Shown here piece after piece: positions 4,560 to 7,465 of a stretch of 41,801 nt of DNA (the first letter of the stretch is position 1; each line of letters opens with the position of its first letter). Below the pieces are notes generated by a model. It ran no database searches. It worked only from the letters and a program-made list of their open reading frames with translations, and had not been told where the DNA came from. The stretch is from a virus, in the IMG/VR virus record IMGVR_UViG_3300035156_000084, positions 1-41,801 of that record. One strand, written 5' to 3'. Made by a program: the position numbers and the translations under genes.

Positions 4560-5153
4560 ATGGCTGGGCCAAAAGTTCCATTCGTAGTGGGTCGGAAGTT
4601 TGGGCGCTGGACTGCAATCTCAGAGGCCCCGATTGCTCAAGGAAAGCCAATTCATTGGACGGTTCAGTGTGCTTGTGGAGTTATCCGGGATGTCTGCAAG
4701 TTCAGGCTCACCTCTGGCGGATCGAGGAGTTGCGGCGGCCGGAGCGCTGGCAAGGCAACGCACGGCAAGTCTACGACAAGAACATATAAGACTTGGACGG
4801 CAATGAAAATACGATGCTCATGCAAAACAGACGCTCATTACCCACAGTATGGTGGGCGCGGAATAGCGGTGTGCGAACGGTGGCTAAAGTTTGAAAATTT
4901 CCTTGAGGATATGGGTGAAGGCCCGGTCGGCCTAACTATTGAGCGCCTGGACCCAAACGGAAATTATGAGCCGGCAAATTGCGTTTGGGCGGATGCGGAA
5001 ACGCAGTCTAACAATAGGCGAGGAATGAAGATGTTTTTTGTCGATGGCGAATGGCGCAGTCGAGCGCAGGCTAGTCGCTACTGGGGCATCGGTATTGAAG
5101 CCGCATTCAAGAAAGCTTCGGCATACGAAATGAAAATAATTGGAGAAGAATGA
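4560..5153 (+). CDS. HNH/AP2-like phage endonuclease-related protein
   Basis: The N-terminal part has Cys pairs (CACG, then C) like a zinc ribbon. The central part has TYKTWTAMKIRC, YGGRGIAVCERWL, FLEDMGEGP, then LTIERLDPNGNYEPANCVWAD and TQSNNRR. This is the layout of a common phage family annotated as HNH- or AP2-domain proteins related to homing endonucleases. Composition is slightly more AT-rich than its neighbours, consistent with a mobile gene. It starts two bases after the upstream stop. Nuclease activity is inferred from family resemblance only. Confidence 0.75.
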   Translation: MAGPKVPFVVGRKFGRWTAISEAPIAQGKPIHWTVQCACGVIRDVCKFRLTSGGSRSCGGRSAGKATHGKSTTRTYKTWTAMKIRCSCKTDAHYPQYGGRGIAVCERWLKFENFLEDMGEGPVGLTIERLDPNGNYEPANCVWADAETQSNNRRGMKMFFVDGEWRSRAQASRYWGIGIEAAFKKASAYEMKIIGEE

Positions 5154-6340
5154 TGACTCAGGAAAAACAAATGAGCGTGCTGCGCGAAGCTTTAAGCAGC
5201 CTGCTCGACCTGTACCACCATGGCAATGGCAACCCGACCAAAATTCTCGGCAAAGCGCATGACGCACTTTTGCTCACCGAGTCCGCAGCTATTCAACCTG
5301 CTGGCGGTGGCCGAGTAACCACCAAGTGGCTGCGTGAAATAGCGCAAGAGGCTGGCTTTGTCCTGAACGACTTGCAACAACTTGTTGTGCCGTCGCCGCA
5401 TTACGATGCAACGCCATACCTCCGTAAGTTGGTAAAGCTCTACGCTGCGCCAGTCTGCACACCTGTGCAAGCGCCCGATGCTGACGCTGTGATTGAATTG
5501 GTACTCAAAGTGGTGCGCCTTGCTCATGACGCAATGGATAACACCGAGGACAACGGCGAAACGAAAACTTGGCACACGCCCGACTTCGACGCATTGAGCG
5601 ATGCAATGGATAAGTTGGACGCGCTGCCCGATGACCGTCCCGGCTACGTGATGGGGCCAGCGGCAAAGGTTGCATGGGCATTGCGCGCCCCGGCTGTGCA
5701 AGCTGCGCCAGTGGAGGTGCGCGGGCGCTGCGCAGAATGCAATGTGGATTTGGGCTACCAATCACATTGGAGAGATTGCCCGAACTTTAAAGCCAGCGCA
5801 CCCGAGGTCAAACAGGATGCGAGCGCGCTGCCACCGCTGCCGGTAGCGTCGGCGCGAATGTACAGGTTGAACGGATATCAGCGGGCATCGGTCAGCGCTG
5901 GACCAGGAGAGCCGCTATTCGCCACCGACCAGGTGCACGCCTACGTTCTGGCCGACCGTGCCGCACGTTCCAAGAGCGCGCTGCCGAGCATAGGCAATGA
6001 CGCGGAGTTCGTCGGTCTAGCTCTTGCGTGGGAAGGCTCATGCGAAATGGAAACACAAACGGAAACGTGGAATGCGCTGATCAACTACATCGACGCTCGC
6101 TCGCCAGATCCCGCCCTTACCGACGAACAGCGCCACGAACAGAACGTCGAAAAGCTCATCGCGTCGGCGCCAGTTGCAGCGCCCACCGAAGCGCCAGATG
6201 GTGCGAGGGATGCGGAACGTCTGGAGCGGCTTTACCAGATGTGTATGGTCGAGCCATTCATCGCCCCGATAGCAACCAAGGATGCTTGGATTGCTTCGCT
6301 AGACAAAGCCATCGCCACCACGAAAGCCAATAATGAATAA
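5150..6340 (+). CDS. Hypothetical modular protein with CxxC pair, 396 aa
   Basis: Start ATG at 5150 overlaps the previous stop; ATG 5153 is an alternative. The protein is a string of helical modules joined by Ala/Pro linkers. One short zinc-finger-like segment near residues 193-212 reads RCAECNVDLGYQSHWRDCPNF. Near 240-265 there is a segment YRLNGYQRASVSAGPGEPLF. No enzyme motif was seen and the function is unknown. Confidence 0.65.
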   Translation: MMTQEKQMSVLREALSSLLDLYHHGNGNPTKILGKAHDALLLTESAAIQPAGGGRVTTKWLREIAQEAGFVLNDLQQLVVPSPHYDATPYLRKLVKLYAAPVCTPVQAPDADAVIELVLKVVRLAHDAMDNTEDNGETKTWHTPDFDALSDAMDKLDALPDDRPGYVMGPAAKVAWALRAPAVQAAPVEVRGRCAECNVDLGYQSHWRDCPNFKASAPEVKQDASALPPLPVASARMYRLNGYQRASVSAGPGEPLFATDQVHAYVLADRAARSKSALPSIGNDAEFVGLALAWEGSCEMETQTETWNALINYIDARSPDPALTDEQRHEQNVEKLIASAPVAAPTEAPDGARDAERLERLYQMCMVEPFIAPIATKDAWIASLDKAIATTKANNE

Positions 6341-6761
6341 CTCCAACGAAGCAACCCGCCTGGTTTGCCTGGAAGCGGCCCAAAAGCTGCGCACGTATGT
6401 GGGCATCTACCCGGGCGACAAACAAGCGCGGCGACTCATTGACGAACTGAGCAATATCGGGACCGCTGCACCGGAGAGCGCCGAGCCGAGCGCGGACAGG
6501 GTAAAGCAAACGCGCTACTTGGACGAGATCGACGGGGCGCGAGTTGGCGAAGACTGGATGGATGCGCGCCAGTTTGACGGCATGAAGCGCGAATATGTGG
6601 AAGACACCGCTGGCCGCGCCCCACGGGTCAAGTGGGCGGCGCTTTTCGATGGCTACGACAAGTTGGTTTGCTGCTACCTGCTGACCCGCGACGCCATGAA
6701 CTACACGCAATTGACGTTGGTCGAGGTTGCCACCAGTAGCGCAGCGAAGGGAGAAGCATGA
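6333..6761 (+). CDS. Hypothetical protein, 142 aa
   Basis: It overlaps the preceding gene by 8 bases and the next by 4 (ATGA). An N-terminal helical block (EATRLVCLEAAQKLRTYVGI) precedes an acidic, aromatic C-terminal half. No family is recognised. The gene lies immediately upstream of the methyltransferase locus. Confidence 0.6.
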   Translation: MNNSNEATRLVCLEAAQKLRTYVGIYPGDKQARRLIDELSNIGTAAPESAEPSADRVKQTRYLDEIDGARVGEDWMDARQFDGMKREYVEDTAGRAPRVKWAALFDGYDKLVCCYLLTRDAMNYTQLTLVEVATSSAAKGEA

Positions 6762-7465
6762 ATGAGCTTCATTTATTCGCGGGCGCTGGCGGAGGCATCC
6801 TGGCCGGCCAACTTTTGGGACATACCTGCGTATGCGCAGTCGAAAAAGAACCCTATGCCCAAGCTGTGCTTGTTGCACGACAAAACGATGGATACCTTCC
6901 GCCTTTCCCAATTTGGGATGATGTCTCGACCTTTGATGGAAGACCTTGGCGCGGAGTTGTTGACATTGTGGCTGGCGGCTTCCCGTGCCAAGACATTAGT
7001 TCTGCGGGGAGAGGCGTCGGAATTGAAGGCGAGCGTAGTGGACTGTGGTTCGAAATGGCAAGGATCATTCGCGAGATTGGACCCAAATACGTTTACTTGG
7101 AAAACAGTCCAATGCTCACTTCTCGCGGACTCGGAATTGTTCTCAGAGACTTGGCCGCGATGGGGTTCAATGCAGAATGGGGCGTGCTCGGTGCGCATCA
7201 TGCCGGAGCTGCCCATGAACGTGAACGAATCTGGATTGTTGCCTACGCCAACGGCATCAAATACGAAAGCGCACCATATGCGAGGGGCGGACAAGGGCAA
7301 AGCCAGGGAGCCACGATCTTACGGCGCCCATGGCCCATTGAACCCGAGATTCCTAGAGTGGCATATGGGGTGGCCCGTGGGATGGACCAAATTAGAGCCA
7401 TTGGAAACGGGCAAGTTCCAAGAGTGGCAGCAGCAGCATGGCAATATTTAAAGGAGCCTACATGA
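6758..7465 (+). CDS. C5 cytosine DNA methyltransferase
   Basis: The 235-residue enzyme has the expected motif order. SAM-binding motif I FAGAGGG is at 7-13, and the catalytic loop GGFPCQDIS at 73-81 carries Cys77. ENS at 115-117 stands for the usual ENV. RERIW is at 155-159 and motif X GNGQVP at 216-221. It transfers a methyl group to C5 of cytosine, and in phages usually protects DNA from host restriction. The target-recognition region is very short (about 165-205), so this is a compact phage-type enzyme. The same DNA is open in a second frame from 6762 (separate entry), with both starts served by one GGGAGAAG ribosome site. The next gene overlaps its stop. Confidence 0.93.
   Translation: MNELHLFAGAGGGILAGQLLGHTCVCAVEKEPYAQAVLVARQNDGYLPPFPIWDDVSTFDGRPWRGVVDIVAGGFPCQDISSAGRGVGIEGERSGLWFEMARIIREIGPKYVYLENSPMLTSRGLGIVLRDLAAMGFNAEWGVLGAHHAGAAHERERIWIVAYANGIKYESAPYARGGQGQSQGATILRRPWPIEPEIPRVAYGVARGMDQIRAIGNGQVPRVAAAAWQYLKEPT
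6762..7451 (+). CDS. Overprinted ORF inside the methyltransferase gene, 229 aa
   Basis: ATG at 6762 is four bases after the methyltransferase ATG, about 8 bases from the shared GGGAGAAG site. The frame stays open for 229 codons. It is not a random shadow in appearance: SFIYSRALAEA, DKTMDTFRLSQFG, WKTVQCSLL, SETWPRWGSM, LLPTPTAS and FLEWHMGWPVGWT match a phage protein type I recall from other genomes. Those sequences begin like MSWLFSRALVE and are usually left as hypothetical. Each block lies opposite a methyltransferase motif; for example SRAKTL lies over FPCQDIS. Either both proteins are made, or the similarity only reflects conservation of the methyltransferase. The function is unknown. Confidence 0.5.
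   Translation: MSFIYSRALAEASWPANFWDIPAYAQSKKNPMPKLCLLHDKTMDTFRLSQFGMMSRPLMEDLGAELLTLWLAASRAKTLVLRGEASELKASVVDCGSKWQGSFARLDPNTFTWKTVQCSLLADSELFSETWPRWGSMQNGACSVRIMPELPMNVNESGLLPTPTASNTKAHHMRGADKGKAREPRSYGAHGPLNPRFLEWHMGWPVGWTKLEPLETGKFQEWQQQHGNI

Follow-up and report, generated by a model that had tools for sequence, protein, structure and literature searches.

Layout of the overlapping locus

The window (the whole stretch of viral DNA analysed, 41,801 nucleotides) looks like a temperate phage, with integrase, portal, tail-spike-like and replication genes. Two of its open reading frames, here called F1 and F2, lie on the + strand over nearly the same DNA: F2 is in the +1 register relative to F1 and covers 97% of the same DNA, the two starts being 4 nt apart within ATGAATG. 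The features of the locus are the following.

6749-6753, + strand: SD-like GGGAG (from the sequence)
6758-7465, + strand: F1, C5-cytosine methyltransferase catalytic chain, 235 aa (PF00145, 5.5e-34; phrog_363, 9e-61; M.HhaI, 1.7e-17)
6759-6761, + strand: TGA that ends the upstream ORF (6333-6761); it overlaps the F1 ATG and lies immediately 5' of the F2 ATG
6762-7451, + strand: F2, putative partner chain, 229 aa, with a variable recognition-type region and motif IX (phrog_1008, 2e-21; selection tests)
6773-6793, + strand: F1 motif I, LFAGAGG, SAM binding (sequence; PF00145 match)
6983-6991, + strand: F1 motif IV, PCQ, catalytic Cys77 (sequence; PF00145 match)
7098-7166, + strand: F2 blocks WKTVQCSLL ... 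ETWPRWG, conserved in 90-103 homologues
7100-7108, + strand: F1 motif VI, ENS (sequence; PF00145 match)
7220-7234, + strand: F1 motif VIII, RERIW (sequence; PF00145 match)
7236-7256, + strand: F2 LLPTPTA, opening the variable region (P161, T162 and P163 nearly invariant)
7338-7388, + strand: F2 motif IX-like segment LNPRFLEWHMGWPVGWT (hhalign to the motif IX region of single-chain methyltransferases)
7403-7423, + strand: F1 motif X, GNGQVPR (sequence; F1 profile of homologues)

A single SD-like GGAG (6750-6753) serves the locus at 4 nt from the F1 ATG and 8 nt from the F2 ATG; across loci the spacer to F1 is usually 4 nt, and that to F2 therefore 8 nt. The earlier note had described two full-length frames with starts four bases apart behind one ribosome site, and its coordinates are exact; the F2 peptide blocks that it quoted, and their placement over the methyltransferase motifs, are likewise correct. 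A stop codon lies immediately 5' of the F2 ATG in 167 loci, in 90 of which the sequence upstream is free of stops for at least 40 aa, and translational coupling between the stop of the upstream ORF and the F1 and F2 starts is possible. An HNH endonuclease gene (window positions 4560-5153; phrog_374, 1e-52; also restriction endonuclease phrog_8790) is located upstream of the methyltransferase.

F1 has the characteristics of a large C5 methyltransferase chain: motifs I-VIII and X are present, with I, IV (PCQ), VI, VIII and X in order, and the match to M.HhaI spans residues 4-172. A complete single-chain enzyme would also carry the TRD and motif IX. The earlier note had taken F1 for such a complete enzyme, which it is not, since its frame contains no motif IX; the PF00145 match is limited to profile positions 3-168 of 324.

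F2 matches phrog_1008, which is labelled DNA methyltransferase, and phrog_26627 (3e-14); no match was found in Pfam or NCBIfam, and nothing significant in the PDB by sequence. Residues T115, Q117, L120, P132, W134 and G135 are invariant or almost so among the 90-103 homologues. The LNPRFLEWHMGWPVGWT segment follows the variable LPTPTA-type region and lies just 5' of motif X of F1. The N-terminal ~150 residues have no counterpart in single-chain methyltransferases and no known fold. AlphaFold, run on F2 alone with 90 homologues, gave a poor model (pLDDT 57, pTM 0.28), for which Foldseek returned no meaningful match.

Constraint on the second frame

Constraint was assessed on 80 viral loci found by F1 alone, whose 75 distinct genes make 76 with the window, and compared with synonymous-codon shuffling of F1. 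For the window alone, F2 is open in 0.93% of 20,000 shuffles. Across the 76 genes, 4 stops were observed in F2 against 380 expected under shuffling, a model outside which shared ancestry lies, and F2 is open in 72 of them; the comparison of stop retention with codon-shuffled controls, which the earlier note had proposed, thus favours a retained frame. Every four-fold degenerate site of F1 is the middle base of an F2 codon, and identity at these sites is 0.634, as compared with 0.310 in the shuffles; the corresponding values for F2 identity are 0.558 and 0.334. The constraint at F1-silent sites runs from the F2 start, dips near codons 81-100 and peaks over motif IX, where identity reaches 0.80-0.90 in the viral set and 0.75-0.83 in the bacterial set (expected ~0.3). 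The same bacterial genes drop to near expectation at codons 81-100 (0.317 versus 0.277), which argues against relatedness as the cause of the constraint. Over the motif IX stretch, position 3 of the F1 codons is less variable than position 1 (0.52 versus 0.63), whereas ordinary genes show the opposite. Of the 80 F1-selected loci, 79 have ATG as the F2 start, and the F1 start varies across the set (ATG, GTG, TTG or no start codon). The bacterial loci, which were found with the F2 profile, all carry an overlapping F1 match; since this set, unlike the viral one, was picked by F2 similarity, its F2 openness is partly due to the selection of loci.

Conserved methyltransferase codons and codon bias could by themselves open the +1 frame, with no protein made, and the earlier note had named such a passive shadow as the alternative. 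Part of this view stands. Scored with the F2 profile, shuffled genes still have a median of ~150 bits and natural genes one of 315, so that the shadow accounts for about half of the score, and ordinary methyltransferases give weak +1-frame matches to the same profile (for example, Streptococcus phage 5093, 4e-8). F2-like similarity alone, as in ordinary methyltransferases, is therefore no proof of an F2 gene, and a frame-specific ordinary similarity search was rejected as such proof, shuffled genes scoring as well. As an explanation of F2 as a whole, however, the shadow is extremely improbable in view of the near absence of stops, the higher scores of the natural genes, the strong constraint on F1 silent sites and the fixed F2 ATG; moreover, a control group of 29 single-chain methyltransferases averages 6.8 stops per gene in the +1 frame, which is open in none of them. 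F2 is more than a passive shadow. Purifying selection is found in both frames, and the suggestion of an old overprinted pair, perhaps with F2 as partner subunit, gains support from stop retention, F1-silent-site constraint and the fixed F2 start codon, as well as from the wide distribution of the pair and the occurrence of the F2 module fused in frame in single-chain methyltransferases.

Arrangements and distribution of the motif IX module

The single-chain methyltransferases of actinobacteriophages (Aggie, Filuzino, prophiT46-2) and of viral contigs (L240-L290) contain LLPTP followed by L..F.EWMMGWP.GW, so that the LLPTPTA-type element of F2 is found in frame in single chains too. This module is placed between motifs VIII and X, in the same frame. 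The F2 profile matches their C-terminal part in frame (4e-7 to 8e-6), and hhalign aligns the motif IX region of F2 with theirs at a probability of 96.5% (E 7.9e-10), over 25 columns only. In one such single chain (L253), the PF00145 match extends over profile positions 1-314 of 324. The AlphaFold model of a single-chain methyltransferase matches M.HhaI overall (E 8e-14); the global superposition is loose (rmsd ~15 A) and was therefore not used for residue-by-residue placement of motif IX. In addition, phrog_1008 unites F2, the single-chain C-terminus and the split C-terminal genes of Wizard007 and Corndog-type phages, the second genes of which match it at 5e-76 and 7e-60, respectively. The C-terminal module of F2 corresponds to the in-frame TRD and motif IX part of single-chain methyltransferases. 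The variable region of the latter (L233, L234, L240-L290) contains repeated LLPTP units a few dozen residues apart, which suggests modular recognition segments.

Relative to motifs I-VIII, the frames of motifs IX and X are 0/0 in the single chain, +1/+1 in split pairs (L147, L230, L197, L199, L278 and others) and +1/0 in the window type. The last accounts for 208 of the 242 loci with an assigned architecture, and motif IX is in the +1 frame in 221 of them. Motif X follows motif IX in the F2 frame of L197, L199 and Corndog-type phages and can therefore be on either chain. Single-chain and split forms are interleaved within one actinobacteriophage clade in a tree of motifs I-VIII, in which most deeper forks are weakly supported; the chain break has therefore changed more than once.

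The window type occurs in Pseudomonadota, Verrucomicrobiota, Spirochaetota (on a plasmid), Nitrospirota, Chloroflexota, Myxococcota and Patescibacteria, as well as in one archaeal MAG and a Porphyromonas phage, although the MAG contigs behind this distribution may contain viral sequence. Both profiles also match in overlapping frames on a cyanobacterial plasmid. Copies are rare in E. coli and at least one is decayed: in the PCP07014 prophage (L320:2500-3261), the copy is annotated as a pseudogene and both frames are broken in the same region. Among the annotated records opened, F1 only is annotated in L144, L146, L228, L229, L232, L237, L239, L318 and L319; in Pseudomonas phage phPA-G (L145:1497-2229) F2 alone is annotated, as a hypothetical protein, and an intact F1 was missed. 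L318 is Salmonella phage S9-5, in which neither frame is interrupted.

Some loci are irregular. Four bacterial loci (L170, L173, L186, L196) have an in-frame stop in F1 and an intact F2, which could reflect decay, sequencing error or unusual decoding. A run of 9-14 G is present right after motif IV in at least 17 loci (including L011, L015, L078, L114, L115 and L134) and absent from the window and most other loci. Its length in L050 (2225-2300), L054, L056-L059 and L062 either puts the F2 C-terminus in frame with the F1 N-terminus or truncates F1, the remaining part of F1 running on in the third frame. This run looks like a phase-variable slippage tract or a homopolymer assembly error.

A putative two-chain methyltransferase

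The sequence data point, with a probability of roughly 85%, to a two-chain C5-cytosine DNA methyltransferase whose chains, F1 and F2, are encoded in overlapping frames. F1 would be the large catalytic chain, providing SAM binding (motifs I and X), the catalytic cysteine in PCQ, ENS and RERIW, and F2 would contribute what F1 is missing of the small domain: the variable target-recognition region and motif IX. Both chains would be made from the adjacent starts in ATGAATG, using one ribosome site and termination of the upstream gene, and would assemble into the active enzyme. The computed support is that both frames are open and constrained, that the F2 ATG is conserved and that motif IX is in F2 and not in F1; we infer that the two proteins are indeed produced and interact, and that methylation and the choice of target depend on F2. 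Counting against this reading are the poor model of F2 alone, the share of the F2 profile score that is shadow, the four bacterial loci with a stop in F1 and the shortness of the hhalign match.

The ribosome might instead shift frame from F1 to the same C-terminal module after motif VIII, yielding one fused methyltransferase and leaving the F2 start unused. The order of the domains fits, the TRD and motif IX coming after motifs I-VIII in single-chain enzymes, and the literature mentions frameshifting in methyltransferase genes (PMC10274946). However, the constraint on F2 begins with its first codons (1-80 and 101-140), the F2 ATG is fixed and motif X of F1 is still conserved past the shift point, all of which make this route quite improbable. 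It is also very improbable that F2 is a phage protein with a function of its own, in antirestriction or elsewhere, and has only its DNA in common with the methyltransferase: although its N-terminal part, with neither a single-chain counterpart nor a known fold, would suit such a protein, the most conserved part of F2 is the motif IX module, which methyltransferases need, F1 is devoid of motif IX and F2 accompanies F1 in the loci found. No evidence points to the antirestriction factor separate from the methyltransferase that the earlier note had offered as one possibility.

The idea of a two-chain C5 methyltransferase is not new; enzymes of the M.EcoHK31I and M.AquI kind are known but rare. M.EcoHK31I has an alpha chain of ~309 aa and a beta chain of 176 aa, with the TRD reported in the large chain; Lee and colleagues are said to have described in 1995 that the beta ORF is nested in the alpha gene in another frame. 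Its large chain (the enzyme recognises YGGCCR) carries motifs I-VIII and X and no motif IX, which is on the small chain (PMC3404938). F1 and F2 share this motif layout, with motif IX on a separate small chain and motif X on the large one. They differ in that the TRD-like variable region of the window reads as a methyltransferase TRD in F2, that the overlap amounts to ~97% and that the starts are 4 nt apart. M.AquI (CYCGRG), an alpha/beta C5 methyltransferase, is naturally split, with motif IX on the second chain (PMC3404938) as in F2; its motif X is also on the second chain, whereas that of the window is in F1. The M.AquI-like form does occur among relatives of the window (L197, L199, L147, L230). 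The mycobacteriophage split pairs (Wizard007 gp76/gp75; Corndog-type gp6/gp5) have the same TRD and motif IX module in the +1 frame relative to motifs I-VIII, but their overlap is short or partial and their motif X is with motif IX on the second chain. Out-of-frame coding within a phage DNA methylase gene is also illustrated by the ShiLan-type hidden HNH endonuclease (PMC11855218). This is an inserted homing element of patchy distribution, whereas F2 is not inserted and belongs to the conserved make-up of the enzyme family. A literature search for this overlapping pair in phages found no description, only M.EcoHK31I, M.AquI and the unrelated hidden HNH insertions.

What is new here is that the two genes overlap almost completely, that the recognition region is on F2, that the N-terminus of F2 is newly overprinted and that the pair is so broadly distributed. 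The most plausible reading of the N-terminal ~150 residues of F2 is that they were newly overprinted on motifs I-VIII. We lean towards a broader scenario, held with clearly less assurance than the two-chain reading itself, in which this N-terminus is a new protein domain, overprinted on an ancient C5 methyltransferase after its recognition and motif IX half had changed frame, giving rise to a two-chain family in several phyla with nearly all of its bases double-coding.

Few long same-strand overlaps with constraint on both products have been described from bacteria and their viruses. The overlap of F1 and F2 recurs in phages and plasmids and in the genomes of several phyla; those annotated records that were opened list one frame only. 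If the two-chain reading is true, many orphan phage cytosine methyltransferases in databases would be half-annotated, and F1 cloned alone would give an inactive or altered enzyme. The series from single chain to split pair to fully overlapping pair would then make the origin of an overprinted protein directly testable.
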